Positions 1 to 33,025 of a DNA stretch of 34,618 nucleotides are shown piece after piece (the stretch's first letter is position 1; each line of letters starts with the position of its first letter). Origin of the DNA: a virus; the IMG/VR virus record IMGVR_UViG_3300027721_000042, positions 1 through 34,618 of that record. One strand, 5' to 3'. Both the position numbers and the translations under genes were made by a program. The notes below the pieces were generated by a model, which was not told where the DNA came from, searched no databases, and worked only from the letters and a program-made list of their open reading frames with translations.

Positions 1-195
1 TTTAAATAATAATCTAGCTCTTTTATCGGATGAATTTAATAATGATGAAAGTATATCAATCATTTTTTTTCTTTGATCTTCTGAGGCAAATGATTCGTCT
101 CTAAGTACTCTTATAAGACCATTAATCTTTTTGTCATACCATTCTGGAGTACTATTTAGATCATCTTCTATAAAATGTCTTTTGTATCTTTTCAT
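1..195 (-). CDS. Tagged small protein, 3' end outside window
   Basis: The frame starts with ATG at 195 and stays open for 65 codons to the window edge, so the C terminus is missing. The protein begins MKRYKRHFIEDD, which matches the shared N-terminal tag of this phage and resembles the T4 capsid-targeting peptide in layout (Lys2, Tyr4, a Phe/Ile pair, then Glu). The rest is charged and probably helical, with no domain I recognise. It is the last of six tagged genes in a row in the direction of transcription, 7 bases after the stop of the gene before it. The likely role, inferred only from the tag, is a protein carried inside the head. Confidence 0.7.
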   Translation of the reverse strand, partial: MKRYKRHFIEDDLNSTPEWYDKKINGLIRVLRDESFASEDQRKKMIDILSSLLNSSDKRARLLFK

Positions 196-202
196 AAAAT
201 AC

Positions 203-433
203 CTATTTAAAATCTTCTATTTTAAGACTTGATGTAAAATCATTAATCTGTTTAAGAAATTCATCTCCATGTTTATTATCTGCAAATATAAGACCTTTAA
301 TAAGAGCCATAAATTTACCTTGTTCTTCTTCTGTATCAATAGATTTCATATCTATTAAATCTTTTATAGCTTTTAAAGATTTATCCTCTTCCGCATCTTC
401 TTTTATTTTATAGACTGGTTTGTATCTTTTCAT
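203..433 (-). CDS. Tagged small protein (76 aa)
   Basis: A 76-residue protein starting MKRYKPVYKIKEDAEEDK. The first five residues are the shared tag, followed by an aromatic residue and an acidic run. The body is a charged, leucine/isoleucine-rich helical sequence with no recognisable domain and no cysteines or membrane segment. It sits in the tandem run of tagged genes, with 22 bases to the gene upstream, and an AGGTG-type ribosome site precedes the ATG. Length and composition resemble internal head or scaffold-core proteins of T4-like phages, which are also short, charged and helical. The function is inferred from the tag alone. Confidence 0.75.
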   Translation of the reverse strand: MKRYKPVYKIKEDAEEDKSLKAIKDLIDMKSIDTEEEQGKFMALIKGLIFADNKHGDEFLKQINDFTSSLKIEDFK

Positions 434-455
434 AATTATTCACCTTTATTATATA

Positions 456-734
456 TTATAGTTGTGCATTTTTTCTAAAATTAACTGGATCAATATGTAT
501 ATCTAATTTATGCGGCATTTCTAATACTTTAGCTAGTATTTCTTTAGGATCATTTGAATCCGTATGAAGACAGTTTACTTCCATATAATTAAGTACTTTA
601 GCCATACCTTTAAAATCATTATGAAAATAAGTGTTACCACAACTTGTACATATATAAAATAGTCTTTTGGTTGTATCATAACAAAGAGTTACCTCTATAT
701 TAGATTCTATAAATTGTCTTTTATATCTTTTCAT
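456..734 (-). CDS. Tagged small protein with cysteine pair (92 aa)
   Basis: A 92-residue protein starting MKRYKRQFIESN, one of the clearest tag copies (Lys2, Tyr4, Phe8, Ile9, Glu10). After the tag comes a compact part with CTSCGNTYFHND, a CxxC pair near residues 32-35, and another Cys and His near residues 55-57, so a small metal-binding fold is possible. No family is recognised. It lies between two other tagged genes, 6 bases after the stop of the one upstream, consistent with co-transcription. The tag suggests head packaging. The cysteine pair makes it more than a simple scaffold helix. Confidence 0.75.
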   Translation of the reverse strand: MKRYKRQFIESNIEVTLCYDTTKRLFYICTSCGNTYFHNDFKGMAKVLNYMEVNCLHTDSNDPKEILAKVLEMPHKLDIHIDPVNFRKNAQL

Positions 735-740
735 AATTAT

Positions 741-1172
741 TTAAGCCTCTTTTTTTAATTCGTCCTTAAATAATTGTTGATCATAATACGTTTTATTTTC
801 AGCATAATGATCAGATGATATTTTTGTTTCATATATTTCTTGAATAGCTTTTATGACTTTATTATCTTCATATTTTTTATCAAGTTCTACATGTTCTTTT
901 TCTATTTGTAATCCTATTTTAAGTTGATCTTCGGTTATTTTAGAGGTATTCCCTTTAGATTTTCCTCCTGTGATTATAACCGTAAGAAAGGCATAAGCAT
1001 ATTGTTCTACAAGATCCGGCTCATAACCATTATCTTCTGCGAACTTATGCAAAATTTCATCTTTTGGAAAGGGGTTTTCTTTAATAAAATTAATTAAATT
1101 TTCTGTTAATTTAATATCTGTTAAATTATTAGTAGAATTTTCTTCTTCAAAATATCTTTTATATCGCTTCAT
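741..1172 (-). CDS. Tagged small protein (143 aa)
   Basis: A 143-residue protein starting MKRYKRYFEEEN, a clean tag with an aromatic pair and three glutamates. Here the tag is spelled AAG CGA TAT AAA, unlike the AAA AGA TAC AAA of its neighbours, so the peptide rather than the DNA is conserved. The rest is acidic and helical with no known domain. Its ATG lies inside the last codons of the homing endonuclease gene upstream (14-base overlap), and the ribosome site AAGGT is encoded by the endonuclease C terminus. It is probably packaged in the head, inferred from the tag. Confidence 0.75.
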   Translation of the reverse strand: MKRYKRYFEEENSTNNLTDIKLTENLINFIKENPFPKDEILHKFAEDNGYEPDLVEQYAYAFLTVIITGGKSKGNTSKITEDQLKIGLQIEKEHVELDKKYEDNKVIKAIQEIYETKISSDHYAENKTYYDQQLFKDELKKEA

Positions 1173-1902: not shown

Positions 1903-1905
1903 ATG

Positions 1906-2001
1906 TTAACCTAATTGTACAAATTTATCTACAAGATCAACATCAGTTAAATCTGATAAAGAATCCGCTTCTTTAAATTTATATGGTTTATATCTTTTCA
2001 T
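1906..2001 (-). CDS. 31-residue tagged peptide gene
   Basis: A short frame from ATG 2001 to TAA 1906 encodes MKRYKPYKFKEADSLSDL and a further acidic stretch, 31 residues in all. The tag is nearly identical to that of the 127-residue tagged protein at 32642-33025 (MKRYKPYKFEEK). An upstream AGGTGATATG context gives a plausible ribosome site. It ends 3 bases before the homing endonuclease start. It may be a real minimal tagged peptide, or the 5' remnant of a longer tagged gene cut off when the endonuclease gene arrived. The tag makes chance unlikely, but I cannot tell these two apart. Confidence 0.6.
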   Translation of the reverse strand: MKRYKPYKFKEADSLSDLTDVDLVDKFVQLG

Positions 2002-2010
2002 ATCACCTCG

Positions 2011-2292
2011 TTATATTCTATAATGAGAACCAGCTATGCCTTTATAATCAAAATTTTTTGAAATTAATGAATCTATGGTTACAAAATCTGTAAGAAGACA
2101 TTTTAATTTTCTGAGTATCTTTTTTTTATCTTCACATTGTTCTTTTTCTAATTCTTTATACATATTTATTATATTATAAAAAGATTCAAATGATGTTGCA
2201 GCAATATTAGAACAAGATTCTTTTAATTCAATGGTTTCAATTAAATTATCTATATTAAGAGATTCTTCAAATTTGCGTTCATATTTTTTCAA
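2011..2292 (-). CDS. Tagged small protein (93 aa), TTG start
   Basis: A 93-residue protein read from a TTG start at 2292, with an AGGT ribosome site a few bases before it. It begins MKKYERKFEESL, a diverged tag that keeps Lys2, Tyr4, Phe8 and two glutamates. The remainder is helical and rich in Glu/Lys, with several cysteines and no known domain. A late-promoter-like motif lies 15 bases upstream, so this is probably the first gene of the last transcription unit in the window, which then runs through the other tagged genes toward position 1. The function is inferred from the tag. Confidence 0.7.
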   Translation of the reverse strand: MKKYERKFEESLNIDNLIETIELKESCSNIAATSFESFYNIINMYKELEKEQCEDKKKILRKLKCLLTDFVTIDSLISKNFDYKGIAGSHYRI

Positions 2293-2307
2293 TCTTTTTA
2301 CCTATTA

Positions 2308-2318
2308 TTTATTAGTAA
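2308..2318 (-). promoter_or_regulatory. Late-promoter-like motif
   Basis: On the minus strand this reads TTACTAATAAA, one of seven copies of WTACTAATAWW in the window. It is intergenic, 15 bases before the TTG start of the tagged gene ending at 2011. Its role as a promoter is inferred from recurrence and placement. Confidence 0.45.
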
Positions 2319-2338
2319 TATAAAAATTTAAAATATAT

Positions 2339-6230: not shown

Positions 6231-6476
6231 CTACTCTTCTAAATCAATATCGTCAATAGTTATACTACTGATTGCTTGCTGCTGTTTTATATGCCTCTCT
6301 TGATTACCTACAAAACTTTTTAGATAACCTTTCACCATAATAGTTAAATGGTCTATTATTTGTTCATTAGTATCAAGTATAATCTGATTTTCTTCACCTA
6401 TCTCATACTGTGATAATATGACATTCTTAAATCTTTGTAAATCTTTGTTCTTTATATCTATTTTTAGTTTAGCCAT
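6231..6476 (-). CDS. Small helical tail-module protein (81 aa)
   Basis: An 81-residue protein, MAKLKIDIKNKDLQRF onward, mostly charged helix with an acidic C terminus (TIDDIDLEE). No known domain is visible. Its ATG overlaps the stop codon of the giant fibre gene (TAATG), so it is translated straight after it. T4-type phages often place a small chaperone or adaptor gene directly after a fibre gene. That is only an analogy here. Confidence 0.65.
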   Translation of the reverse strand: MAKLKIDIKNKDLQRFKNVILSQYEIGEENQIILDTNEQIIDHLTIMVKGYLKSFVGNQERHIKQQQAISSITIDDIDLEE

Positions 6477-9400
6477 TAGTTTAATACCTCTATAACTGAA
6501 TTTGTACTTGTAATTGTATTTCCTGCTCTTGCATCACTCCATTGATAAGTTACATTTAATTGCCCTGTTGCTGTAGTATCTATTGTTACAGCAGAAGTAG
6601 TTACTATTTGTCTTCCATAGACTGTCATATCTGCTGAAGAAGCCGCATATATAGTAGTTGAACCTTGTACAAATATAGTACCCGTAGCACCTGTAGTTCT
6701 ACAAGTCATTATAAGTTCTCCTATAAATAGACTATTTGTAAGAGTTACTGGAAATGCATCACCAATAGAACTTGCTACAGTAACACTTCCAACTTTCACT
6801 CTTATAGAAGCTGTATCTAAAGCAGTACACGAAATATGCCCGTACATTTTTAAACGTATAGTCTTACCAGCAACCCAGAAATTCGCTGGTAATAAAGTAA
6901 CTCCTACACCTGTTCCAACCATAGTTGTTTCTGTAGTTGTATTACCAACTGTAGCACTTGCTGTTTGTGTAAAGATAACACCCGATAAACTTTTAGTTAT
7001 TCCTGAAGATTGTGATCTTATACAAGCTTGTGTTGAATCATTCCATATATCTCCAGCAACTGGTGCTGTTGGAGCTGTTCCTGAAGCTAAACATAAGGAT
7101 GCTCTTACTGTAGAACTTGCTCCTATATGAACCAAAGCTGTTGGAGCTGTTACATTTACCCCTAGATAACCTGCATTAGAAATACGCATTCTTTCTGCAC
7201 CATCTGAAGTAAAGTCTCCTACTGTATTAGTCTTAAAGTATATAAATCCTTTAACTAAATGTTCTGTTGCTGCATCATTTTCAACACCACCACCAAATCC
7301 AGCAGCAGGAACCCACTCTGCAGCTCTTCCAGAAGGATCTGGTTTTTCATCTTTCCAACCGTAGAAATAAAATAATCCTAAATTGTCACCTTGATTAACT
7401 ACTACTGGAGATGCTGAGCTTCCCCTAGACCTTCTAAAATTAAAGTATGGTGATGCACCTGCGGATGCTGCTGTATATCGTGTTGCCTGAACACCCGTTG
7501 TAGAGGCTGTTCCTTCTATATCTAATGCCATTGCTGGTATAGTTGCACTACCAATACCTAACTTTCCAGCAAGATAATTATCGGCTGTCCCTGCCATATA
7601 GATATTCCATCTATTTGTTGCAGATGCTAAAGACCCATAAAAACCATAATTACTTGTTGCTCCAGTCATAGTAGATGGAACATGATATCCTATTTGGTTA
7701 GTAATAGATGAGCCTGAACCAATTGTTGGATTTAATAACGAATAATGATACATAAGATTTAAAGCAAATGATGCAGCTTCTGTTAACGGTGCTGATATAA
7801 AAGAATAAGCACTTGCAGTAACATCTGATTTAATTGTTGCACCTTGGTAAAGTCCATATTGTGTTGTAGCTCCGGTCATTGCTCTTGCAAATGTTGCACT
7901 AACTGCAGTAGAAGCACTAGTACCTTGCGCAATTCTTCCATCACTATAAAAACGAAATTTCTCTGATATATCTGTTGTTCCATCTGCTGTGGATATTTTT
8001 ATGTCTGCTTTAGGATAAACGCCGGACTGAGTTCCATTTGCTACCGATTCAATACTAGAGCAAATATTTCCTGTGACATGGTCAGAATCGTTTGAATACC
8101 ATTGTATCGTTCCATAGACATTAGTTGAAGCTACTATGGTGTCATTTCTTTGTAATGTTATTGTTGGATAAGTACCCTCTGTCATTCCAGATAAATGTAA
8201 TCCTATAGATGATCCAAATGTTAATGGGGTTGAAGTGCCTATACCTATATTTCCTAAATTATCTATTCTCATTTTCTCAGTTAATGTCCCTGAAGTTAGA
8301 GTTGATAATGATAGATATCCTTTAGTTGAGGTATCTGTAGCGTCTGATTTTCTTCCTGCTATACTTGCAAAAGGTACTTGAGTTGTACTAGTATAAACAC
8401 CACCTAGTGCTAAATGTCCACCTTTATCAATTGCTTGAGAATCAGTAGTTCCAATAAAAACATTACCAAATGAATTTGTAATAGTATTGGCATCATTTAT
8501 AGCAAGTTTTTGTACAGGGGAAGTAATACCAATACCAACATTCCCACCGAAATAATTTGTCCCGCTTACTGAATAAATAGAATAATTGTTTGTACTAGCT
8601 CCAGATATTCCTCCAATATAAATACCATATTTACTTGCTCCAGTTGCATTGGTGTTTGCGAATAGTTGTATTCCATATGACACTGTACTCGCATCTGAAT
8701 GATATCCGTTCATGCTACGGACAGCCAAACCAGCTATTGTTCCAAATTTACCACCACCAGTTCCGAAGATACCTATATCAGCACCATAGTAGTTTGTCAC
8801 ATTTCCTGTTCCTAGTATTCCACCAGTAAATACAAGACCTGACATATTGGTTATAAGACCTGATCCGTTATTATAAGCAGAGCCAGTCATTGCTCGAATA
8901 TTTGCATGATCATATGCAGATAACCCTGTAGTAGTTACGGTAACAGTCGTAACACATCCAGTAGAACCTGTATCTATAAATGAATTAGTTCCTGTCTTTG
9001 CCTCTGCAACTTTTGCTGTTAATGTAACCGTAGCAGAAGCAACCGTAACAGTCCAATTTGTAGTTATAGTTGTATCAAGATTAAGAGCTGTATTGATAGC
9101 TGTTGCAAGAAGGTCAACCGTAGTCTCTGTCAAATTACTTACCGCTACAACTGAAGAAACACCTCTAATAGAAAATGTAATATTACCAGCACTTGTTGGA
9201 ACTACAGTTGCAACAATTCTAATTACTTCTGCTGTTGGTGTATTTGTAGATGCATAAGATACAAAGTTTACCCCATCTTCTGCTACTGTAACAGCACCTG
9301 TAGTTGCTCCAAAAGTAGATATAAGTGCATAACCTTTTGAAGCAATAGTTGAATCATTTACAGTTGTTGTTGCATCTATCTGGCTAGTTGGTGATGATTT

Positions 9401-12400
9401 TCCTGCTCCAATACCCACTGGTTTTGCTAAGTAAATCTTGTCCCCATGATATTCGGCTACTGTTGCAGATGTTATTGTGTTTAATGGTGTTGCTGTAAAT
9501 CTAATATATGTTCCATGATTTGTTGGAGTCCATGCACCACTTGAGTATGATCCGAAGCCAGCTTGGTTTGCAGCTCTAGCTGTTCCATCATAAGCACCCA
9601 TTTGAAAGTTGAAGAGAGTATCAGAGTCAAGAACCGCCTTTGGGCTTGCGATAGTCCCTCTGTATTTTATAGACCTAATTACATTTGATGTATTGTTATC
9701 ATAATAGTCAGACATTTCAAATACTTGAGCATTTCCCTCTTTTACAAAATCAATATTTCCGGTGACGAACGCCGAAGATCCGAGCAACAAGTCTCCAGCT
9801 TCATTTATCTGAAATTTTACTCCCTGCTCTATAACACTAATATTTGTTATTGATCCATCAAAAGTTGAGGTTGGTTGAAATGCTATATAAGTATCGTCCA
9901 CAGCAGCAGTTATGGCTGACATATAATTTCCAGCACCCATAGTAACGCTCACAGTAGCTCCGTTTACTGAGCCGATCTTAGGTATAATAGTTCCTGCAGT
10001 ATTTCCAGCTACTGTAAAATAAATTTTGTATCTCTTACCGGCTTTAATTGATCCAGAAGTCAAATTTACATTTGCAAGAATTGCATTGGCTGTTGAGCCT
10101 ACGGTGTGGACAAGTGTACCTCCAGAAGTAGTCCAATTAGTCCCTGTCCAGTTATTAGCACCTGAAAAATCCCTATCAACTTGATTTATTATAAGCTCAG
10201 AACTTTCAGCTTTAAATACTTCAAACTTACCTGTTGGAGACGATGTACCTATACTAAATTTTCCTGCTGAAGTAATCCTTGCACGTTCATTAGCTGCAAG
10301 TGTTCCACCTGTAAAGAATGTTAAATCTTTTCCAGCAGTAGCTGTACCTATAGACAATACTCCTGAATTTGTATAAAGATAACCATCATTAGGTCCATTG
10401 ATAGTCCAAGGAACCCCTGAAAATCCTGAACTATTTATTCCCATATCTATAAATCTTGTAGTATCAGAACCATTATCAGCAGTAGCAATCCAATCACTTG
10501 AGGCTGAATTTCCATTACTTAAATTTTGTATATTATTTTGAACCCAACTATCAGTTGAATCCCATGACTGAAGCATTACATTTGAAAGACCGGCTGGAGT
10601 CCCCGCTCCTTGTGCTACAATATGACCAGCATATAAATCCCCACCAACTCCAACACCACCAGCTACTTGTAAAGCCCCAGTAACTGTATTCATACATTGT
10701 GTACCAGCATCTATTATCACTGATCCTGTTGTTGTATCAGCTTTATTAGGCTGTATAGTTAGATTCTCGGTTGTAAGAGTACCTCCATAAATAGTCTGAC
10801 CACCTGCTTTACCTGTAATAAGATCATTGGATACGGCATTTCCTATTTTTGTTACACCACTCCAAAAAGTATTATCACCTGTATTTGTACCACTCGTATT
10901 AGCAACCACTGTGGCTTGTGCAGAAGTTATATGGTAATACTCATTTGTTGTTCCACCTTGTAAACCTGCTAAATCATTATGAAGAGCTATAAGAGGGGTA
11001 GTAAAATGAGAATATCTTGCAGTACCATTATGTGCAAAATAAACAGTTCTACTACCATCAGATACTCCAAAAAAAGCAGAAGCTAATGTATCCGTTGTTT
11101 CTACTGTAAATGAAGGTTGAGCTGAAGTTACAGTATAAAGTTGTAATCCTGCGAATAGAGGAGAAGTTGCTGTATTGTTTATCTCCCCTGTATTAACACT
11201 AAATAATTTTTTATGTACTGAATAGGCTACATCTGATTGGTTAGTATATGTTGTAGGAGTTTCTATAGTAATTTCTGTATCAGAAACTCTAGATAGTATT
11301 CTGAAAAATCCTGTTGTTGTTTGTAGATAAGAATCTGAGTCACTCGTTCCTCCTACATCTATTTTAGCAGTTGCAAAAGGTGTTCCAGTAGAAGCAGTTG
11401 CTGTTCTTGTTGTTAATGTACCTGTAGTTGTAATTGTACCTATTTCAGGTCTTACCCTATAAACACCTTGAGTAATAGATGTTACATTTACCGCAGAAGA
11501 TACTCCTGCCCATATTTCAAAACTCCATATACCACCATCAATAAGAGTTTTACCTATTGCAGCAGTATTCAGGTATGTACCATAAAGAACCGGGGAAGTA
11601 GCCGCTGTACATATAATTGAATCAACATCCTCTGTTGTAGTTACAGGTGTTTTTGAAAGTGTTTTAATAGGATAAGTTGATTGTGTTCCAGATGCTATAA
11701 TTGTTGTATCATCAGGAAACATTGTTACTGCTGATCCCGCTGATGCACTTGAGAAAGAATACTCCCTAACCATATTTACAAAGATTCTTCCGTTAACTGC
11801 ATCTTTCAACATTACTCTTGCAACTCTTGTATCATATGAACCAGTATTAGGTTTTATATTTGTTAACGCCCCTGCAATAGAGGCATCAAGATATAGTTCA
11901 TCATTAAGATTCCAAGCTGAAGTATCTATTTTATTTACATGACCCCTAACTGTACAATAGCCATATCTTGTATCATCTATTGTAAGAGAGGTAATAACAC
12001 CTAAAACTTTTGAAGTAGTTTCAGTATCCCCTTTTGCCAAAGATACCGAGGGAATACCATCCTGAGTTCCTGAGATATAAACTACATTACCCTGTACTAG
12101 TTGAGAACCGGTTCCATTATATACATAGGCCATTGTTTCTTGACCTATTTGTAAAGTGACATCATCTTCAAGTTCACAAGCTGGAGTTTTCCAAGCTGCA
12201 TCCCAGAACATTTTCCCACCAGTTCCATGAGTTCCTACTGTTGGAGTTAATCCTAATTGAATTGGTTCATTTACAGTTAATATACCACTTAATGTAACAC
12301 TATCAGTAATAGTATGAGGATATAATGTTGTAGACACTCTATCCCATAAATTCTCAGCTCCTACTGAATCATCAACATATTTTTTTGTAGCTGGTTCATA

Positions 12401-15259: not shown

Positions 15260-15260
15260 A

Positions 15261-15593
15261 TTATGCTCCTCCTCCATCTAAAACTTGTGAGATTAAATAT
15301 ATACTTGCTGCTGCTCCACCATCTAGTTGAGTTAAACTACTTCCACCACTTATACTTATCCAAGTATTTGGCATAATAGTTTTAAGCCATAATACACCAG
15401 CACTTTGCATAAATGTACTTCCGATTAACATACTAATTAGTTTATCTTCCCCATCTGAGTGTGATGGTACTGCTGTATTAGGATCTGCATCAAAAAGCAT
15501 TGAAGAAATTGTATCATCCAATGTAGAGTTTTTGGACCATTGAAATCCTCTCCGTTGAATTTCAAAATATAATTGATCATTATTTAGAGACAT
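15261..15593 (-). CDS. Tail-module protein upstream of the fibre (110 aa)
   Basis: A 110-residue protein (MSLNNDQLYFEIQRRG) with a helical first half and a glycine/serine-rich hydrophobic second half (WISISGGSSLTQLDGG). No family is recognised. Its start lies inside the end of the homing endonuclease gene (14-base overlap), which also supplies the ribosome site GAGGT. Its last codons, GAT GGA GGA GGA GCA TAA, in turn supply the ribosome site of the giant fibre. It is probably a minor tail or fibre-linked protein. Confidence 0.7.
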   Translation of the reverse strand: MSLNNDQLYFEIQRRGFQWSKNSTLDDTISSMLFDADPNTAVPSHSDGEDKLISMLIGSTFMQSAGVLWLKTIMPNTWISISGGSSLTQLDGGAAASIYLISQVLDGGGA

Positions 15594-16266: not shown

Positions 16267-17922
16267 TTATACTAACTCCTCTATTATAACTGTTGTGGGA
16301 ACACTACTAGAATTGGTTGCTGCTGTATCCAAAATAATAGCAGTTGTTGGATTTATTGAAAGTGCATCAATACTCCAAGAATTTGCATCCGGTACAGTAC
16401 TTGTTCCAACTACTCTCTTATTAGGTAATGCTTTAACTGACCAAGTAAAAGTTAGTTTAGCATAATCAATAACTTCTGTATTAAAAACAATAGTATTCGT
16501 ATATGCAGGGAGTGTTATAGTTCTTGAAACAAAACCACCTATTGTATAAGTAGAGTCACCTGTAATAACTACAGTTTGTATTCCAGCTAAATTAGTTCCA
16601 GAAATACTCCCCCAACTACAAACTTGTTTGACCATTGTATCGGTAACTTGTAATGATCTTGTCCAAGTTGTTCCAGAACCTGCAAATCCTGCTCCTTGAA
16701 ATACACCCTCTGCTCCAGCAACTAAAGTTGGAGCTGAATATAAGTTTTGATTTGCTGTAATAGTTATAACATGATTTTGTGCAGAAGTACTATCATTTCC
16801 ACCACTTCTTAATCTTGAAGCAGGTTCTGTTACTGTAAGAGTACAAGCTACATGAGCTATATAGATAACTGTTTGTGTTGTAGATATTGCATTATTAGCA
16901 GTTCTTGTAGCGGTTATTCTAAAATTATTTGTGGATATATTATAATTACCTGAAAGTCTTGTAACTGTTTTTGGTGTTTCAACAGTCGTAGCATTTGTTA
17001 TTGTTAAATCTCCATTAGGAGAATCATATAAGACTGTATCATAATTTGTAACTGTATTTACTATTGTAGCTGTTTCACTGTCTTTTAAAGCTCCTTGAGA
17101 TGCTGGATATGTTTTAGTTCCTGTAGAAACAGTAGGATATAGATTATTTAATTTAACTAAATTTGTACCATCTACACTACCATCATCTTCAGTTAAATAA
17201 TAGGTAGACCATGAGCCAGTTGATTTTTGTACTCTTACTTTAGCACCTAAACTTTGAACCGTTGTACCTCTATTTGCTATTACACCTATAACAGTATGAT
17301 TAGTTCCAGATACTACTGAAAATGATTGAGCAGAATAAGCACCATAATCATCAAGTTGTACAGCTATAATTGGTATATCAGATACTATATTTAAAGAGAA
17401 AGTATCTGCTAATTTTAATTCTGTTTGAGTTCCAGGATATCCACCAGTAAAGTTTGCAGAAGATATAACAGGAGGGGAATCTAATGCTATAGTACAAGAA
17501 GTAATTGCTCCATCTTCATGTTCTATTGATAGGTTAGTTTCTCCTGCTAAGTTTATTGCAGTTGATCCTATAAATAGAGGTTTATCTGCTTGAGCTGTAA
17601 GAGTAACTACTTGACTATGTGTTCCCCATCGTAATGACATAATTGGTTTATAATGAGTATTTCCTGTAATTCCTAATGTTGAAACAGTAACTAATTGAGT
17701 ATCACTTACACAAGATTGAAGTACTATTCCATCGCTATCATATACTTTAGTTCCAACATTTCCAGTACTTGTAGGAATTATATCCGTTATAAATGCACCA
17801 CCATTAACTCCTGATACACCTGAAAAAGATACCCATGTAGCATTCTTTCTACCATAAGTAAATCCATCAATAGGGGCTTCTGGAATACCCCCACTAGATA
17901 ATGATGATATTTTAGTACTCAT
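16267..17922 (-). CDS. Large tail/baseplate structural protein (551 aa)
   Basis: A 551-residue protein rich in Thr, Ser, Val and Gly, predicted nearly all beta. The N terminus (MSTKISSLSSGGIPEAPIDG, then FTYGRKNATWVS) resembles the start of phage fibre or collar proteins. The body looks like successive Ig-like or fibronectin-like beta modules (patterns such as TLTVTEPASRLRSGGND, AQNHVITITANQNLYS). It has no enzyme motif. It is the first large gene of the fibre module, 13 bases after the tagged gene at 17936. It could be a fibre base, wedge or adhesin. The exact place in the virion is unknown. Confidence 0.78.
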   Translation of the reverse strand: MSTKISSLSSGGIPEAPIDGFTYGRKNATWVSFSGVSGVNGGAFITDIIPTSTGNVGTKVYDSDGIVLQSCVSDTQLVTVSTLGITGNTHYKPIMSLRWGTHSQVVTLTAQADKPLFIGSTAINLAGETNLSIEHEDGAITSCTIALDSPPVISSANFTGGYPGTQTELKLADTFSLNIVSDIPIIAVQLDDYGAYSAQSFSVVSGTNHTVIGVIANRGTTVQSLGAKVRVQKSTGSWSTYYLTEDDGSVDGTNLVKLNNLYPTVSTGTKTYPASQGALKDSETATIVNTVTNYDTVLYDSPNGDLTITNATTVETPKTVTRLSGNYNISTNNFRITATRTANNAISTTQTVIYIAHVACTLTVTEPASRLRSGGNDSTSAQNHVITITANQNLYSAPTLVAGAEGVFQGAGFAGSGTTWTRSLQVTDTMVKQVCSWGSISGTNLAGIQTVVITGDSTYTIGGFVSRTITLPAYTNTIVFNTEVIDYAKLTFTWSVKALPNKRVVGTSTVPDANSWSIDALSINPTTAIILDTAATNSSSVPTTVIIEELV

Positions 17923-17935: not shown

Positions 17936-18247
17936 TTATACTAAAGATTTTCTATATGAGAGAAGTGAACGTAATATGGTTTTAACAACTATTTGTTTTT
18001 TCTTATTCTTTAGATTTTCATCCTCTATATTTTCAAACATAGAATCTAATCCTGTAATCAAAGATTCTCCTATAATATTTCCACTTAAATATGGTTGTGG
18101 TTTAATTTTAGATATAAGTTCAATTATACCTATTAGATTATTTTGAGCTGAACCAATATTATTAACTGTAAATGAAGCTTCATTTATTTTTTCTTTTGTT
18201 TTAACTATAATTTCTTCTTTCTGTATTTGAGATTTGTATCTTTTCAT
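17936..18247 (-). CDS. Tagged small protein (103 aa)
   Basis: A 103-residue protein starting MKRYKSQIQKEEI, carrying the shared N-terminal tag but without the aromatic residue after it. The rest is helical with no known domain. A late-promoter-like motif lies 32 bases upstream, and a terminator for the previous unit lies just beyond that, so this gene heads the long fibre transcription unit. The tag suggests packaging in the head even though the following genes are tail genes. Confidence 0.7.
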   Translation of the reverse strand: MKRYKSQIQKEEIIVKTKEKINEASFTVNNIGSAQNNLIGIIELISKIKPQPYLSGNIIGESLITGLDSMFENIEDENLKNKKKQIVVKTILRSLLSYRKSLV

Positions 18248-19814: not shown

Positions 19815-19961
19815 TTAATTTTGATCAAAATCAATTTTTCTATTTAATTCTTTTATTCTTGCAATAGTCTCATGATATTCTTCTAGTTGATCTATATGAA
19901 TAGCATAATCTTTAGTAATATGTTTTAACTTCTCATATTCTTTGTTTAATTGTTCTTTCAT
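19815..19961 (-). CDS. Small helical protein (48 aa)
   Basis: A 48-residue frame, MKEQLNKEYEKLKHITKDYA onward, from ATG 19961 to TAA 19815. It is highly charged and probably one coiled coil. Its ATG overlaps the TGA of the ParB-domain gene upstream (ATGA), which supports real, coupled translation. No tag and no domain. It is the last gene of the tagged-gene unit before the late-promoter-like motif at 19789. Confidence 0.65.
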   Translation of the reverse strand: MKEQLNKEYEKLKHITKDYAIHIDQLEEYHETIARIKELNRKIDFDQN

Positions 19962-21160
19962 TTTTTAGTTAAACCCATATATTTCTTAATCATTTGCCTC
20001 ATTTGAGGTATATAGAACTTTATTGAATTTACAACTCCAGCAGTATGCTTGTCAAGAAATTGGTCTGAATTATGGTAGTCATTCCAATGTTTAGGTTCTA
20101 TGTCTGTAGGGTATAAAGAAGCATCGAACATACCCATATTATAATTCATCCCCATCCAATGAAATGCGGGTACATTAGACCATATTTGAATATCACAAAC
20201 ATTAAAGACATCTTCTATATCTTTATTTGTAAAGTCACCGTTCGGTTTAGTGTGTAGTAATTTAAAAAAATCTAAAATTTTAATTTCAATAGTGTACACT
20301 CTAGCAGATTTTAAAGAAAAATCTGCTTTAGGATCAACTACTTTCATTGGAGTTCCTTTATCATATTTAGGTGTTCTTTTTGTTTTCCATACAAAAATTA
20401 TATAGTCTTGTTTTTTATTTACTTTCATACTTTTTAATTTTGTATGTGTAGTAGGAGCACCCATAAGTTTATTTGTTTCTTTTGCAAATCCTTTAGTAAA
20501 ATCTGACATAGAAGCCTTCTTCATTAAATCAGTAAATCTAAGATTTTCACTAAACTTAGATTCTTGTATAAGTCTAAATTTTGTACCACTAATTTCTTTA
20601 CCGGTATCTGTTACTAATATCAAATCCCCTTTTTCATTAACATACGAATGATCATATATAGCTTGTTTATTTTTAAATTTTCCATATTTAAAAGGCATTC
20701 CTTTTTCTAGTGGTATTACTATATCTTCATTCATTTGTTTTTTAAGTTTGATGATATCATCTATACTTTTAAATCCTAGTGCTAGTATGGGATTATCTTT
20801 TATGTCTTCTATTTTTACATCTATATTTTTTAATTTTAATTCTTTAGCATAACCGTATCTATGATGTCCATCTTCTATATAAAATTTACCTTTATTATAT
20901 GATACTTCAATTGGGGGTAGTTTACTAAAAGGTTTATTTTTAAAATAATCCTTCATACTAAATCCAGTAACATTATCCATATCACCTTTATACTTTATTT
21001 TAATATTTTTTAAAGGTATAGATATAATATCATCTTGACTAAATCCAAAGGCTATTTTATCCCAATCATAATTAACTATTTGAGATACTGATAAATCTTT
21101 TATTATGCTCTTTATTTTATCAATATCTATATCTTCAAAGAATGGTTTATATCTTTCCAT
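19958..21160 (-). CDS. Tagged ParB-like domain protein (400 aa)
   Basis: A 400-residue protein starting MERYKPFFEDID, a clear tag copy with Lys2 changed to Glu. Residues about 40-115 hold a ParB/sulfiredoxin-type domain: SIPLKNIKIKY, LPPIEVSYNKGKFYI, then DGHHRYGYAKEL with Gly98-His-His-Arg-Tyr102. In other proteins such domains bind or cut DNA or hydrolyse nucleotides. Residues about 210-395 form a second conserved region (WSNVPAFHWMGMNYNMGMFD, ASLYPTDIEPKHWNDY, FLDKHTAG) that I recall from uncharacterised structural proteins of large myoviruses. Tag plus both domains suggest a DNA-related protein carried in the capsid. It is followed by a coupled 48-residue gene. Confidence 0.82.
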   Translation of the reverse strand: MERYKPFFEDIDIDKIKSIIKDLSVSQIVNYDWDKIAFGFSQDDIISIPLKNIKIKYKGDMDNVTGFSMKDYFKNKPFSKLPPIEVSYNKGKFYIEDGHHRYGYAKELKLKNIDVKIEDIKDNPILALGFKSIDDIIKLKKQMNEDIVIPLEKGMPFKYGKFKNKQAIYDHSYVNEKGDLILVTDTGKEISGTKFRLIQESKFSENLRFTDLMKKASMSDFTKGFAKETNKLMGAPTTHTKLKSMKVNKKQDYIIFVWKTKRTPKYDKGTPMKVVDPKADFSLKSARVYTIEIKILDFFKLLHTKPNGDFTNKDIEDVFNVCDIQIWSNVPAFHWMGMNYNMGMFDASLYPTDIEPKHWNDYHNSDQFLDKHTAGVVNSIKFYIPQMRQMIKKYMGLTKK

Positions 21161-21418
21161 TTATTTAACCCATATCCAATAATAATCATCTATATGTTTC
21201 TCAACTCGTAGCCCTTTCTGTTTTAATAAAGATAATACCCTGTAAGTATTTCTACTTGAATCCGGAATATATGTATATAGAATATTTCTTTTTTGATTTA
21301 ATCTATCGGTAGGATTATTAACTAATTCTACATTTAACTGATCTTTAATAAAATCAACAATATCTTTTTTATTTTTTATTATTTTATTATCTTCAAAGAA
21401 TGGTTCATATCGTTGCAT
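21161..21418 (-). CDS. Tagged small protein (85 aa)
   Basis: The start is set at ATG 21418 so that the protein begins MQRYEPFFEDNK, matching the tag and especially the next gene (MERYKPFFED). The frame continues 8 codons upstream inside the previous gene. The 85-residue protein has a helical middle (KKDIVDFIKDQLNVEL) and a possible small winged-helix or DNA-binding-like end (TYRVLSLLKQKGLRVEK, then DDYYWIWVK). No family can be named. It is the middle gene of three adjacent genes that each carry RY(K/E)PF. A packaged role is inferred from the tag. Confidence 0.72.
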   Translation of the reverse strand: MQRYEPFFEDNKIIKNKKDIVDFIKDQLNVELVNNPTDRLNQKRNILYTYIPDSSRNTYRVLSLLKQKGLRVEKHIDDYYWIWVK

Positions 21419-21614
21419 TATATCTACACTCACTAAGTTCATTTATAGCATGTTTAAGTTCTTCATTTTTAGTTGCATGATATCTGTCTTGTAAAATGAG
21501 TATAACCATAGTAAGATCTTGTAATGACATTTCAAGTCTTCCTAAATGAATTTTATACTTTTTACATTTAATATATTTTTGTATAATTTTCTGAGTTTCA
21601 CTGGTTATATACAT
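21405..21614 (-). CDS. Small helical protein (69 aa)
   Basis: A 69-residue protein (MYITSETQKIIQKYIKCKKY), basic in the first half and helical throughout, with no tag and no known domain. Its ATG overlaps the stop of the gene before it (TAATG), and its own end overlaps the start of the next tagged gene by 14 bases. It is therefore embedded in the unit and probably co-translated. The function is unknown. Confidence 0.65.
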   Translation of the reverse strand: MYITSETQKIIQKYIKCKKYKIHLGRLEMSLQDLTMVILILQDRYHATKNEELKHAINELSECRYNATI

Positions 21615-21787
21615 TATTCCTCTGAAAAATTAAATGGCTTATATCTCTCAGATATAACTTTTTCTTCTACAGTTTCCCAATCTTTATCCCATACCCATTT
21701 GAATTTTTCAGGGGTATCCGCTTTGGTATTATATTGCCCTCTTTTAGCAAAAATAAATTTCTGCTGCTGTCTGCTTGATGATGGCAT
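21614..21787 (-). CDS. Small protein with the tag motif at its C terminus (57 aa)
   Basis: A 57-residue frame from ATG 21787 to TAA 21614. The N-terminal part (MPSSSRQQQKFIFAKRGQYN, then a Trp-rich KFKWVWDKDWE) resembles a small protein found in many large phages that starts with a Q-x-K-(F/Y)-(I/L)-F-A-K pattern and has no known function. The last residues are ISERYKPFNFSEE, a close match to the tag (compare MERYKPFFED) but at the C terminus. It has no N-terminal tag. The stop overlaps the next ATG. The C-terminal copy may be a targeting or cleavage signal in reverse position. Confidence 0.7.
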   Translation of the reverse strand: MPSSSRQQQKFIFAKRGQYNTKADTPEKFKWVWDKDWETVEEKVISERYKPFNFSEE

Positions 21788-21789: not shown

Positions 21790-22011
21790 TTATTGACCTT
21801 TTATAGCGTCTAGTTGAAGTTTCTTTTTAACTATTTTATTTTCTATACTATTGATTTGATTTTTTATTTTTTGTTTATCTTCTAATGACATATTTTCTGT
21901 ATTAGATGATTTATCTCTTAGTTTTGTTATTTGATCTTGAAAATCTTTTATTTGAGATTGTATTGTTTCTTTTTCATCCTCTTTAAAAAATGATTTATAT
22001 CGTTTTGTCAT
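21790..22011 (-). CDS. Tagged coiled-coil protein (73 aa)
   Basis: A 73-residue protein starting MTKRYKSFFKEDEKE, with the tag shifted by one residue (a Thr inserted after Met). The rest is one long charged coiled coil (IKDFQDQITKLRDKS, KQKIKNQINSIENKI). Small, highly helical, tagged proteins are what internal head proteins of T4-like phages look like. A late-promoter-like motif lies 22 bases upstream and a terminator lies just beyond it, so this gene heads the unit that includes the ParB-domain protein. Confidence 0.75.
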   Translation of the reverse strand: MTKRYKSFFKEDEKETIQSQIKDFQDQITKLRDKSSNTENMSLEDKQKIKNQINSIENKIVKKKLQLDAIKGQ

Positions 22012-22108: not shown

Positions 22109-22642
22109 TTATTTGTTAATTTTGAATTCTTGTTTTATAGGTTTACATTCTTCTTTCATTGGTATAAAAATTGACAATATACCCCTGCTTATTTTAGCTT
22201 CTAGTTTATCAAAATCCCATTTAGTGCTGCCTTGATAAGATACCGAGAAATCTCTTTCAGCAATATTTCTATAGAAATATTTTCTCTTGCATTCTTTATC
22301 TTTGTTTTGTTTCCCTTCTACAATTAGTTTAAGATCATCTCTTTTTACAGAAATTTCTTCTTCAGAAAATCCTGAGACAGCAATTTCTATTATTGAATTC
22401 ATATCTTCATCTACATAATAATTACTTACAGGGTAAGTTGGTGTGTAAATGGTAGGATAAGTAAATTCTTCTACAAGTTGCCAAAAATTATCTTTTACTT
22501 TTGGGAAACTGTAATAAGTAAAATCACATACCGATGTTCCTGAAGTAGATGAAGGTGATGTGATAGTATAGATTGAATCTACTACATCATTGAAAATACT
22601 GGAGAGACTTACTGAATTTTGAGAATAATTGTGTTTAGACAT
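22109..22642 (-). CDS. Hsp20 / alpha-crystallin small heat-shock protein
   Basis: A 177-residue protein read from ATG 22642 (MSKHNYSQNS), with AAAGAGG just before it. A longer frame from 22663 would read through that ribosome site and spell a false KRYK. The alpha-crystallin domain covers residues about 76-158: YYVDEDMNSIIEIAVSGFSE, LKLIVEGKQ, and the family signature AKISRGILSIFIP (A-x-x-x-x-G-x-L). Small heat-shock proteins hold unfolded proteins. Phage copies, as in T4-like cyanophages, are late genes thought to help assembly. It stands alone between a late-type motif at 22720 and a terminator. Confidence 0.9.
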   Translation of the reverse strand: MSKHNYSQNSVSLSSIFNDVVDSIYTITSPSSTSGTSVCDFTYYSFPKVKDNFWQLVEEFTYPTIYTPTYPVSNYYVDEDMNSIIEIAVSGFSEEEISVKRDDLKLIVEGKQNKDKECKRKYFYRNIAERDFSVSYQGSTKWDFDKLEAKISRGILSIFIPMKEECKPIKQEFKINK

Positions 22643-22716
22643 TTTGTACCTCTTTAGTGCCATTAAAGGTCACTGTAAATTATATTTCTAACCCCTTTAG
22701 GTATTAGATGCAACAT

Positions 22717-23497: not shown

Positions 23498-24331
23498 TTA
23501 TACCTCGTAAGAATCTTTAAAAGGTATTTTCATACTTTTACCTAATAAATTTTCTCTGTTCATTCTTTTAATTAGTGTTTGTAACCATATGTCTACAATA
23601 GCTTTTCCATAATCTTTAACATCTGTATATACAGAATATAGTGAAGGATAAATAGTAAATAGTTGTGGTATATTTATTTTATCCCATTTTAATTTATTAT
23701 CTTTGTATACTTGTTTTAATCCATGAATCTGAGCATCTATTTCAAAATGAGTTAAATTTATATCTTTTGTTTTTAATTTCAAAAGTTCCGGGTTATCATA
23801 TTTTTTAGCAAGGTAAACAACTTTTTCAATATGATCATTATGTAATGTATTATTTAACCAATGAGATAATTCATGATAAATCATTGATTTTACATAACTT
23901 TCTTTTAACATATTCTTAGCTATCTGAATTTCTTTTTCAGATATAAAATTTTTCATTTTTCTAAAATCAAAATCACTTTTAATATATATTTCAATTAGTT
24001 CTTTATTTAAAGATATAATAATATAGTTTCTATCTTTTATTTTTTTATCAAAAATTATTTTAGATTCAGTAGTAAATACTCCTCCAAAGATATAAATAGG
24101 TTTTAATTCATTTGCTAATTTAGATTCCATACACTTTAATTTATTAGAATCTAAATATTCAAAAACACAACCTCTTTCATTTATCACTGGCCATCTTTTA
24201 TTTAAATCTTCATTGAAAGTTTTATCTTTTAATTGCTCCATATAAGACTTAAAAATAAAAGAATATATATAATTAACATCATCATCTATATCAAAAGTTC
24301 TTTCTAAAAAATAAGATTTATACCTTTTCAA
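23498..24331 (-). CDS. Tagged HExxH metallopeptidase-like protein (277 aa)
   Basis: A 277-residue protein read from TTG 24331 with AGAGG upstream, starting MKRYKSYFLERTF, the shared tag. Residues 153-157 are HELSH inside VKSMIYHELSHWLNN, the zinc-binding HExxH motif. About 40 residues later FEIDAQIHG offers Glu197 as a likely third ligand, a spacing and E-I-D-A pattern seen in gluzincin-like peptidases. Key residues look intact. No signal peptide or membrane segment is visible. A protease with a capsid-targeting-like tag could be injected into the host, or could act in the prohead. It is followed by a coiled-coil gene and preceded by the primase. Confidence 0.82.
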   Translation of the reverse strand: MKRYKSYFLERTFDIDDDVNYIYSFIFKSYMEQLKDKTFNEDLNKRWPVINERGCVFEYLDSNKLKCMESKLANELKPIYIFGGVFTTESKIIFDKKIKDRNYIIISLNKELIEIYIKSDFDFRKMKNFISEKEIQIAKNMLKESYVKSMIYHELSHWLNNTLHNDHIEKVVYLAKKYDNPELLKLKTKDINLTHFEIDAQIHGLKQVYKDNKLKWDKINIPQLFTIYPSLYSVYTDVKDYGKAIVDIWLQTLIKRMNRENLLGKSMKIPFKDSYEV

Positions 24332-30335: not shown

Positions 30336-30387
30336 TTGTGAACTAACACAACTCTAAAGAGTTGTATCTTCCTGCTTCATAGTTCAC
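30336..30387 (-). repeat. TnpB element right end, nested hairpins (candidate omega-RNA 3' part)
   Basis: GTGAACTA at 30338-30345 and TAGTTCAC at 30380-30387 are a perfect 8-base inverted repeat enclosing a second hairpin, ACAACTC at 30348-30354 with GAGTTGT at 30359-30365. On the minus strand this covers the last TnpB codons and runs to TAGTTCACAA. IS200/IS605-type elements end in such hairpins, and the TnpB guide RNA is made from this region. A related copy is at 32488-32519. Confidence 0.6.
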
Positions 30388-31587
30388 ACTTACAAAAGAT
30401 TTTAAATAATCTATTGCAGAGGTATTAAACTCCACAGGCTTAAATTTCCTACATTCCATAGGTATTGTTTCTAAAAGAATATTTTTTGCAGAATGAATAT
30501 CTCTGTCCTGAGAATACCCACAGTCACAAAAGTATATTCTTTCGTCTAAACCAATTTTATTAAGACAGCCACATTCAGGACAAAGTTTTGTACTTGGAAA
30601 AAATCTATCAACAATATGTGTCTGCGGAAGTTGTTTTAATTCCGAAATTATTCCACCTAAAATTGATTGCTGTACTTGTTTTCCAAATAATCCTGCATGC
30701 CATCCTTTTATATTTTCATTTTGAATTGCTATATGAGAATAATTATTTTTTAAATAACTTACAATTTTATTTTTGCAATCTTGTTTTTTATTATTTTGTT
30801 TCTCGTAAACTAAGGCAACTTTATTTTTTTGTTTCCAATAATTATGACTGCCTTTTTTCTTTTTAGCTAATTTTCTCTGCTCTCTTTTAATTTTAAAAGA
30901 TGTTGGAAATTTAGTTTGAAATTTAATTCCATTGCTCAAAACTAAATCATCTTTAATTCCAAAATCAATACCTAATATTTCTTTACTTATGTTTTTATTT
31001 TCTTTAGGAAGAAAACAGGTAACCTTGAGATAATATCCAGAAGATTTTCTAATCAAATTAGCATTTGCAAATTCAGCTTCTTTTGGAATTTGTTTTAATC
31101 CTTTAATTTGAAATAAGAATTTACAATTTTGTATTTTTAAACCACCATCTTGAAACTTATAAGTTATTCCATATTGTTTTAATGGGATAGAGTTTATTTG
31201 ACTTTTAAATTTAAGTCTACCCACTTGTTTTGTTTTACCTTTTTTCTTTTTAGTAGATAACGACTTAATAGAACCCCATGTTCTTTGTAATATTTCTTGT
31301 TTAATCTGACTACCTAAAACTTTTAATTCTCTTATTTCCTTTTCTTTCTCTTTATTTAGAATTTCTACTTCTTTCTTTTTGCAATCATAGTTTTTTAAAT
31401 CATTAAAATTTAAAATATCATTATATACCCATTTTGCTTCAAGGAAAATTCTATGCAAAAAATCAATTTGTTTTAAATTGAACTTATTTTCAGACAACTT
31501 CAACTCATAAACTTTACAGGTTTGTGTTTTACGTTTTTCCCTTGTAATTGAAAGAGAATCCTTTATTTGTTGGTTTTTAGTTATCAT
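30343..31587 (-). CDS. tnpB: TnpB RNA-guided endonuclease (IS200/IS605 type)
   Basis: A 414-residue TnpB, of usual length. The RuvC-like active site appears complete: Asp208 in LGIDFGIKDD, Glu291 in AIQNENIKGW and Asp363 in DRDIHSAKN. The zinc ribbon has Cys336, Cys339, Cys354 and Cys356 (LCPECG...FCDCG). TnpB cuts DNA guided by a short RNA from the element's right end, keeping the element in place or copying it into empty sites. No TnpA transposase is visible, so this is an orphan TnpB. It lies between two pieces of a DUF932 gene. The gene ends in a nested hairpin typical of a right end. Confidence 0.93.
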   Translation of the reverse strand: MITKNQQIKDSLSITREKRKTQTCKVYELKLSENKFNLKQIDFLHRIFLEAKWVYNDILNFNDLKNYDCKKKEVEILNKEKEKEIRELKVLGSQIKQEILQRTWGSIKSLSTKKKKGKTKQVGRLKFKSQINSIPLKQYGITYKFQDGGLKIQNCKFLFQIKGLKQIPKEAEFANANLIRKSSGYYLKVTCFLPKENKNISKEILGIDFGIKDDLVLSNGIKFQTKFPTSFKIKREQRKLAKKKKGSHNYWKQKNKVALVYEKQNNKKQDCKNKIVSYLKNNYSHIAIQNENIKGWHAGLFGKQVQQSILGGIISELKQLPQTHIVDRFFPSTKLCPECGCLNKIGLDERIYFCDCGYSQDRDIHSAKNILLETIPMECRKFKPVEFNTSAIDYLKSFVSVNYEAGRYNSLELC

Positions 31588-31659
31588 AATTTTCTTGTGA
31601 TTTTATATATTCCATAATTTCCATAATTTCCATCTTTTTGATATATAAAAGTAAACTGT

Positions 31660-31941: not shown

Positions 31942-31980
31942 TTTAGAACTCCTTATTTAATTTATAAAAATACTTTTATA

Positions 31981-32015
31981 TCTATAATATAATTAAAATA
32001 GATATAAAAGTGTAA
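31981..32015 (-). promoter_or_regulatory. Early/middle-type promoter element
   Basis: On the minus strand TTACAC (32015-32010), 18 bases, then TATATT followed by ATAGATATAAAAG. It is a close copy of the other three elements and lies 40 bases before the DUF932 start. Confidence 0.62.
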
Positions 32016-32019
32016 CTAA

Positions 32020-32241
32020 TTATAATTTATTCCAATTTTTTAACTTTTCAAGCCATAATTTTTTTATAGTTTGTCTCATAAGATTTTCATCTTGTTTTGG
32101 AATATATTTTTTTATTAACCCTGAAAATTCATCAATTAAATTATTTATAGCATCTTCACAAGAAGGTCCATTTAAATCAGTATCCTCATACTTAATAAAT
32201 AAATTTTCTAATTCTTCTAATTTTTTTTTGTAAGTTTTCAT
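32020..32241 (-). CDS. Small acidic helical protein (73 aa)
   Basis: A 73-residue protein, MKTYKKKLEELENLFIKYED onward, all charged helix. The MKTYKK start is close to the T4 packaging peptide in Lys2 and Tyr4 but has no following aromatic/acidic pattern, so it may be chance. It has no cysteines and no domain. It lies 28 bases after the zinc-ribbon gene and before an early-type promoter element. The function is unknown. Confidence 0.65.
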   Translation of the reverse strand: MKTYKKKLEELENLFIKYEDTDLNGPSCEDAINNLIDEFSGLIKKYIPKQDENLMRQTIKKLWLEKLKNWNKL

Positions 32242-32269
32242 TCTATACCTTTTTATATTAAAAATTTTT

Positions 32270-32467
32270 TTAGAAAAGAGTCATTTTTTCGTAATCTTTT
32301 CCTTTCTGACATACACTACATTTTGTAAGTGTTATATCTATATTACCCTGTAATTTTACCTCACAACCACATTTACAAATAAATATTCTTGATAATCTAT
32401 TTTCTTGAACTATTTCTTTCTCTTCAGTATTTATAGAAAGACTTTTTTCACTCTTAATTGCTTTCAA
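32270..32467 (-). CDS. Small zinc-ribbon protein (65 aa), start uncertain
   Basis: A frame of 65 codons from a TTG at 32467. CxC in FICKCGCEVKLQG and CxxC in TKCSVCQKG form a zinc ribbon. Before the TTG there is no good ribosome site and a stop lies two codons upstream, directly downstream of the TnpB remnant. The gene may have lost its original start when that element inserted, or may begin at TTG with weak expression. A resemblance to the small zinc-ribbon protein at 22717-22875 is limited to the cysteine spacing. Confidence 0.55.
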   Translation of the reverse strand: MKAIKSEKSLSINTEEKEIVQENRLSRIFICKCGCEVKLQGNIDITLTKCSVCQKGKDYEKMTLF

Positions 32468-32649
32468 TCTTTAAATCCATCCTTAGCTTGTGAACTACTA
32501 CAAGTCTTTAGACTTGTAGATTCTTGTTTCATTGAAAATTGCTTATCAAAAACAAAGGTTTTTTCTAAGTCTGACATCTTCTCCACAAGCATTGAATTTC
32601 TAAGTTCTTTAGAAATTTTTAAGCCCTGATTTAAAATATTTTTAATCAT
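32464..32649 (-). pseudogene. Decayed TnpB C-terminal remnant
   Basis: A 61-codon frame whose first part, IKNILNQGLKIS, matches the AKNIL segment after the last RuvC aspartate of TnpB (intact copy: SAKNILLETI). The part near its end, SMKQESTS, fits the usual TnpB C terminus. The nuclease core and zinc ribbon are gone. It ends in a hairpin (CTACAAGTC at 32498-32506 with GACTTGTAG at 32511-32519) followed on the minus strand by TAGTTCACAA, as in the intact element. The remnant overlaps the end of the tagged gene upstream by 8 bases. Confidence 0.62.
32488..32519 (-). repeat. Second TnpB-type right end
   Basis: TTGTGAACTA at 32488-32497 is identical to 30336-30345 beside the intact TnpB gene. 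It is followed in both places by a hairpin with a four-base loop and related arms (CTACAAGTC here, ACAACTC there). This marks the two elements as relatives and leaves a possible guide-RNA scaffold at this site. Confidence 0.6.
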
Positions 32650-33025
32650 CTATAGAATATTCTATGTACCACAAAATATCTGAGTCTTCATTCCACTGAA
32701 GTTCCCCAGAATTTATAGCATCTAAAACTTCAGCGAATACTTCTCCTGAAGGTATTTTACTATTCAATTTTTTCATAGCTTTTAAAACTAATTGTTTTAA
32801 TTTAGCTTGTTGATTAGGTCCAATACTAATTCTACCCTCTTTAAATCCACCATTAGCTTTCAATTCATCAAGAACATATTCCTGATCTCCATCAGAAAGT
32901 TTTTTAAAATCTGAATCCTTTTTTAGAAGTTTAAATGATCCATATTTAGCTTTAAATTCACCTATAAGTTCATTTAAATCTTTTTTATTTTTTTCTTCAA
33001 ATTTGTATGGTTTATATCTTTTCAT
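32642..33025 (-). CDS. Tagged small protein (127 aa)
   Basis: A 127-residue protein starting MKRYKPYKFEEKNKKD, a good tag copy almost identical to the 31-residue peptide at 1906-2001. The rest is charged and helical (LKQLVLKAMKKLNSKI) with an acidic C terminus. No domain is recognised. It lies among early-type genes, yet it has its own late-promoter-like motif 25 bases upstream. That supports late expression and a packaged role. The TnpB remnant begins at its stop codon. Confidence 0.74.
   Translation of the reverse strand: MKRYKPYKFEEKNKKDLNELIGEFKAKYGSFKLLKKDSDFKKLSDGDQEYVLDELKANGGFKEGRISIGPNQQAKLKQLVLKAMKKLNSKIPSGEVFAEVLDAINSGELQWNEDSDILWYIEYSIDD

Follow-up and report, generated by a model that had tools for sequence, protein, structure and literature searches.

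Why should a dozen otherwise dissimilar proteins of one large, uncultivated phage begin with nearly the same few residues? The question is raised by a stretch of 34,618 nucleotides, positions 1 to 34,618 of IMG/VR virus record IMGVR_UViG_3300027721_000042 (hereafter the window). A first-pass annotation had noted twelve genes there that start with MKRYK or a close variant, here called the tag, and had likened it to the capsid-targeting sequence (CTS) of phage T4. All twelve starts proved to be the 5' ends of minus-strand open reading frames (ORFs). By comparing sequences and predicted folds, we identified the tag itself, its confinement to protein termini, its presence on many families, a prohead protease, the order of the surrounding genes, and a cleavage-type motif at domain boundaries. 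We consider it very probable that the tag is a T4-type capsid-targeting and processing signal, with a consensus specific to this lineage and an unusually large set of client proteins.

Reverse-complemented, the window corresponds to positions 24729-59346 of a 71,016-bp IMG/VR contig (G001; identity 99.997%), and G001 position p corresponds to window position 59347-p. A search with the capsid protein recovered six further contigs of 18-156 kb, with capsid proteins 71-74% identical to that of G001. Because three contig pairs are near-duplicates, the seven contigs represent four lineages, G001 and three further, and because all are fragments, our client counts are lower bounds. The window genome has a low GC content (28%), and no relatives of the phage were present in the bacterial genome assemblies searched.

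A short tag on many unrelated proteins

Tagged proteins were collected by searching for KRY-like starts alone, so the tyrosine of the tag is invariant by selection, and seven evident non-tags were then removed by eye. Across the seven contigs, 113 ORFs with a KRY-like start formed 61 BLAST families, or approximately 54 after this removal. Beyond the tag these families are unrelated, in agreement with the earlier remark that the rest of each protein differs. By contig, the tagged share of genes was 25/113 (G003), 16/106 (G001), and 27/243 (G007). Large proteins were scarce among them (5 of 101 tagged proteins have at least 300 residues, versus 114 of 541 others), and with few exceptions the big replication and tail proteins were untagged.

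The tag is concentrated at protein starts. A profile search, as the first-pass annotation had suggested, gave 102 matches among 8,346 positions of the N-terminal zone over the seven contigs, compared with 20 among 104,450 interior positions. Several of the interior matches are miscalled starts, and the rate in shuffled proteins was 1.65 matches per pass. When N-terminal patterns were searched with no prior assumption, RYK or KRY ranked first in G001, G003, and G007 and within the top three in the small combined set of G002 and G006. The three-residue pattern RYK was found in the N termini of 11 of 105 G001 genes, where any three-residue pattern reached at most 6 in 20 shuffles, and KRY was found in 17 of 112 genes of a related contig. 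Applied to T4, whose clients are too few for this purpose, the same search detected no pattern beyond the shuffled level.

The tag has two parts

As read from the aligned termini, the consensus is M-(0-5)-[KE]-R-Y-K-x(1-5)-hydrophobic-x-E, which is lineage-specific and newly described here. The tag appears to be bipartite, with KRY as the putative targeting element and hydrophobic-x-Glu as a candidate processing site of the type cleaved by T4 gp21. A hydrophobic-x-Glu motif fell between Y+3 and Y+12 in 49 of the 54 families, compared with 29.9% of control windows from the same proteins; with nothing excluded, it was present in 51 of 61 families (binomial p 5e-18). Its glutamate mostly lies at Y+5 to Y+7, and leaders ending in hydrophobic-x-E span roughly 10-40 residues. 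The tag can also be shifted by several residues, as in MNKTKKRYQ, MKEKQCERYQ, and MEKKVERYQ.

Two families locate the motif relative to the rest of the protein. In family 1 (seven divergent members), the glutamate occupies a single alignment column just before the mature domain (FLNEAV, MFEMV, MLEMV, LIEMV), and the same holds for the four members of family 6 (RLKEAS, KMQEIS, ILTEAS, KINEAS). The linker between KRY and this glutamate varies in both length and sequence. A fixed glutamate column with a variable linker is the pattern expected if KRY and hydrophobic-x-Glu have distinct functions. In T4 IPIII, targeting depends mainly on residues 4 and 7 and processing on residues 8 and 10 (PMC9026906), a bipartite layout that the present tag matches.

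A prohead protease, a scaffold-like region, and the capsid gene

It had been predicted that a head protease could be found, and we located a gp21-type prohead protease approximately 1 kb past window position 1, outside the window. This ORF (g86, 654 residues, G001 60340-62304) follows the run of tagged genes and one homing endonuclease gene, and it precedes the major capsid gene (G001 62557-64014). We note that a GIY-YIG-like endonuclease gene (L010:2975-3844) stands directly before the protease gene. In each of the four lineages, the first 190 residues of the protease ORF matched phrog_207, 'head maturation protease' (E down to 1.2e-7). A Foldseek search with the predicted fold returned T4 gp21 (5JBL) as its top three matches (E 1.9e-7), followed by herpesvirus proteases, and among viral models it matched prohead core proteases. 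The hhalign alignment to T4 gp21 was collinear, pairing H95, S146, and D172 as well as an N-terminal LLIE, and the His, Ser, and Asp residues are invariant in the four lineages. By its modeled fold and these catalytic residues, g86 belongs to the gp21 type of prohead protease. The protease had no match in Pfam and none by tblastn against phage isolates. Sequence and profile searches of the PDB gave chance matches only, so the case rests on phrog_207, the fold, and hhalign.

The remainder of the ORF contains a coiled coil and an acidic region and is scaffold-like in appearance. This region carries 6.4 hydrophobic-x-Glu motifs per 100 residues compared with a median of 2.25 in other proteins, an excess due in part to its high glutamate content. 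Protease and scaffold-like region are fused as one ORF, an arrangement that is new here. The N terminus of the protease is itself tag-like, clearly so in one lineage (MNKYKTLQEQ) and loosely in G001 (MSRYRYLEDK).

The capsid protein was similar to a protein annotated as 'major head protein' (E 1e-6), and its hhalign match to T4 gp23 was weak (E 0.046); its AlphaFold model was not used, as the predicted local distance difference test (pLDDT) score was 38. All six contigs that contain the region (G001, G003, G004, G005, G006, G007) have small tagged genes immediately upstream of the protease. The resulting order of small core proteins, protease, scaffold, and capsid is that of the T4 genes 67-68-21-22-23.

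Proposed function and alternative explanations

The T4-like reading made from the window was strengthened by the protease and by the cleavage-type motif in 49 of 54 families, while its further steps, in which tagged proteins are targeted, cleaved, packaged, and ejected, are ones that we infer. Under this reading, KRY would recruit a tagged protein to the prohead core, that is, to the scaffold half of the protease-scaffold fusion, and the shell would assemble or close after tagged proteins had docked there. The gp21-type protease would then cut after hydrophobic-x-Glu, so that the mature protein stays in the head alongside the DNA, and upon infection many clients would enter the host. Some small clients encoded just upstream of the protease would probably be core components like T4 gp67 and gp68. 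We lean slightly towards a broader proposal, a modular injectome, in which a portable 10-residue tag on 10-20% of the lineage's genes directs over 50 unrelated proteins, peptidase-like, nucleotidyltransferase-like, and DUF4160-like ones among them, into the head to be delivered and the principle recurs with other tags in unrelated huge phages. Placement of the tag is usually N-terminal, once C-terminal, and once internal, where it is retained inside a fusion.

Several observations weigh against a T4-type signal. Hydrophobic-x-E is a short motif with a 30% background, and the capsid protein has no single clear cleavage site, an invariant [LIM]-G-E-A near residues 27-30 being no more than a candidate. 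The protease model has a pLDDT of only 68, its hhalign E-value to gp21 is modest (0.0039) with low probability and a shallow alignment, and its own N terminus lacks the tag in G002 and G003. The C-terminal tag of one family has no analogue among T4 CTS proteins. Finally, packaging is deduced here from genes, not from virion proteomics.

The main alternative, itself unlikely, is that the tag marks only parts of the prohead core or scaffold that maturation destroys, as in the case of T4 gp67 and gp68, rather than injected cargo. The small acidic tagged genes directly upstream of the protease occupy the position of T4 genes 67 and 68, and by analogy some of their products may be core components that are degraded. 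However, the tag occurs on more than 50 unrelated families, which include enzyme-like members and whose genes also lie on both strands and at a distance from the head cluster, and in families 1 and 6 the glutamate immediately precedes a conserved domain, which cleavage would release intact. Enzyme-like clients and a motif at domain boundaries argue against a core-only role for the whole set.

That the tag sorts proteins to another phage-made site in the cell, such as a phage nucleus or a membrane, is considerably less probable. A short basic-aromatic N terminus on unrelated proteins has the look of any sorting signal, and similarity to a PhiKZ-group 'tail sheath' protein is seen in one protein of the window. 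Sorting to such a site, however, gives no reason for the linkage to a head protease or for a motif of its cleavage type, and the tag, whose position table shows Lys, Arg, Phe, and Glu, has neither the hydrophobic stretch needed for membrane export nor the hydrophobic core of a secretory signal peptide.

It is very improbable that the repeated starts reflect a DNA or translation element, such as a recombination seam or an initiation enhancer, with the peptide as a by-product. The core ATGAAAAGATATAAA is A-rich and located at the start codon. Yet the Arg, Tyr, and Lys codons of the tag follow the genome background (AGA 0.79 versus 0.75; TAT 0.82 versus 0.86), for which reason we rejected a promoter or DNA-element reading, and the DNA directly upstream of tagged starts shows no conservation. 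Together these two results indicate selection on the peptide, as had been supposed from the window. The mobility of the tag by several residues, and its occurrence at a C terminus and inside a fusion, also oppose a DNA element. The T4 late-promoter sequence TATAAATA was found upstream of 7 of 111 tagged genes and 28 of 523 others, which is no difference. Chance, or compositional bias from an abundance of Lys, Arg, and Tyr codons in the genome, to which the low GC content might point, is refuted by the far fewer matches in shuffles and at internal positions.

Comparison with known packaging systems

Signals of this kind are already known from the T4 CTS, the ejection proteins of PhiKZ and SPN3US, and DarB of P1 (PMC9026906, PMC5694885, PMC7411985, PMC9024508). 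The T4 CTS (MKTYQEFIAE; on IPI, IPII, IPIII, and Alt; protease gp21) is the closest, being likewise a leader of approximately 10 residues on the N termini of unrelated proteins. Shared features are Lys2, an aromatic residue at position 4, a hydrophobic residue near positions 7-9, Glu at about position 10, separable targeting and processing parts, and a gene order of gp21-type protease, scaffold, and capsid. In contrast to T4, the consensus here is [KE]RYK and does not follow MKT[YF]xEF or KTYQEF, which is why we regard the tag as working like the T4 CTS but belonging to a separate sequence family. The approximately 54 client families in the seven contigs also differ from the handful in T4, as do the drifting position of the glutamate behind an extendable linker and the single ORF for protease and scaffold. 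The consensus, the client number, the drifting linker, the fused protease-scaffold, and the C-terminal copy are new here.

PhiKZ and SPN3US (S80 protease gp175/gp245) likewise carry many head proteins whose leaders are removed by a gp21-related protease and which are ejected into the host. Their leaders are mostly longer than 100 residues and are cut at A-x-E, whereas those described here are of about 10 residues with hydrophobic-x-E; no leaders of the PhiKZ type, longer than 100 residues and ending in A-x-E, were found in our set. In P1, an N-terminal signal (the first 30 residues are sufficient) sends the anti-restriction protein DarB into the head, but in that paper the signal was demonstrated for DarB alone, with no tag shared by tens of proteins, and P1 appears to have no separate scaffold.

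Genome samples of LR756502 (642 kb), LR756501 (735 kb), and Vibrio phage SRILMA showed lineage-specific leaders on many unrelated proteins, namely MKYLKIFED / MKHLKKFES, MIKSFKLFES / MKKFSQYINE, and MKFKEYLNE, all different from KRYK. Each of the three phages encodes a phrog_207 protease. Starts of the form MKYLKxFE or MKHLKKFES were seen in L052 (LR756502.1 75001-125000) and MIKSFKLFES starts in L050 and L051 (LR756501.1). These termini suggest a leader of like kind, differing in consensus, in the 642-kb and 735-kb phages, and since unrelated huge phages with a phrog_207 protease show such leaders, the principle may be general. A literature search among open-licence papers found no description of lineage-specific leaders in huge phages. 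A match of family 16 to huge and Vibrio phages was confined to a C-terminal repeat region, so family 16 offers no tag-swap orthologue there.

Client proteins and their possible significance

Most tagged clients have no known relatives. Those that could be recognized comprise a ParB-like protein (19958-21160), a protein with a HELSH metallopeptidase-like motif noted by eye (23498-24331), an AbiEii-like nucleotidyltransferase, a phosphoribosyltransferase-like protein, and DUF4160-like proteins. Four of the last kind, all tagged with ERYxxFFEMAN-type leaders, lie within 6 kb on the minus strand of G001 next to the capsid gene (L010:8239-14267). An anti-host role for most of the tagged proteins would be a guess.

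T4 disarms its host with a small number of delivered internal proteins. If our reading is right, this lineage delivers dozens, which can be listed from sequence alone, and hundreds of 'hypothetical' small phage proteins would become predicted virion cargo, supplying candidates for proteins whose action precedes the expression of any phage gene. The tag would also offer a second, sequence-distinct short signal for studying how cargo is loaded into phage heads, and if the injectome proposal holds, the injected proteins of a phage could be read from its genome through the tag.

Tagged genes of the window

All tagged genes of the window are on the minus strand. The first, MKRYKRHFIEDD (1..195), is cut by the window edge and complete at 88 residues in G001 59152-59418; it is the last tagged gene before the homing endonuclease gene and the prohead protease, and its orthologues in G005, G006, and G007 begin MNRYIRYYSEDEDD. 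The next (203..433, 76 residues, MKRYKPVYKIKED) has orthologues in G003 and G007, of which the G003 one is fused behind another tagged protein and retains its tag internally. It is followed by genes of 92 residues (456..734, MKRYKRQFIES) and 143 residues (741..1172, MKRYKRYFEEE); the latter is DUF5661-like at a level below the cut-off, and its orthologues in G006 and G007 are tagged too.

A 31-residue ORF starting MKRYKPYKFKEAD (1906..2001), which reads MKRYKPYKFKEADSLSDLTD, ends at a GIY-YIG homing endonuclease gene. It resembles the N termini of family 8 in G006 and G007 and probably represents the 5' remains of a gene from the family to which 741-1172 belongs. The GIY-YIG gene (1159-1902) lies between this remnant and the full gene, and its final codons overlap the tag codons of the latter (1159-1172); it may have been inserted at or near the tag. 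Upstream lies a 93-residue gene with a TTG start (2011..2292, MKKYERKFEES), with an orthologue, MQRYISHFKEDF, in G003/G004.

The 103-residue protein MKRYKSQIQKEE (17936..18247) has a conserved Leu/Ile/Met-x-Glu before its mature domain (KINE/AS), and the glutamate is aligned in four of four orthologues despite variable linker length. The ParB-like protein (19958..21160, 400 residues, MERYKPFFED) matched phrog_1033 in its N-terminal region (E 8e-6) and has tagged relatives in G002, G003, G006, and G007; tblastn against phage isolates gave no match. Next to it, an 85-residue gene (21161..21418, MQRYEPFFED) starts at 21418 within a longer ORF that starts at 21442. Its match to phrog_7673, 'internal head protein' (E 0.08), was dropped, as phrog_7673 fails on T4 too.

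Two copies of the tag add to the twelve originally listed. A 57-residue protein (21614..21787) carries the tag at its C terminus, ending ISERYKPFNFSEE (tag codons 21614-21649), and members of this family in G002 and G006 end IKERYTPFNFKK. Judged from these termini, the C-terminal copy is conserved in at least two lineages and is new here. The other copy is on an HSP20 protein (22109..22663; PF00011, E 1.1e-11) starting MALKRYKMSKHN (MALKRYK), where the tag is weak or degenerate and has no nearby hydrophobic-x-Glu. Between them lies a 73-residue gene (21790..22011, MTKRYKSFFKED) with a homologue, MNRYKPFVFSED, in G007.

The 277-residue protein with the HELSH zinc-metallopeptidase-like motif (23498..24331, MKRYKSYFLER, TTG start) had no family match to back that motif. 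The last tagged gene encodes 127 residues (32642..33025, MKRYKPYKFEE), and a 73-residue protein starting MKTYKKKLEELE (32020..32241) is a candidate variant by resemblance only.

Other genes nearby

A search of the window for portal family PF07230 gave no match, which is uninformative because the control was silent too. The 'tail sheath'-like protein mentioned above (16267-17922, 551 residues) matched PhiPA3 gp165 with 47% identity across 81% of its length; its carrier phage otherwise looks unlike the PhiKZ group, and the 'sheath' annotation may be wrong for the matched domain. A GIY-YIG-like endonuclease gene (15580-16266) lies between tail genes. An insert carrying a homing-endonuclease-like ORF interrupts DNA polymerase A (L007:8346-12587), the second part of which begins with what resembles an intein C terminus (...GNNICIHN/S). 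By eye, the protein at 30343-31587 is TnpB/OrfB-like, with a C-terminal CPECG...CDCGYSQDRDIHSAKNIL. A tail-fibre-like protein of 2,933 residues (6476-15277) matched phrog_6049 over its first 57 residues, and its first 25 residues are identical in G007.

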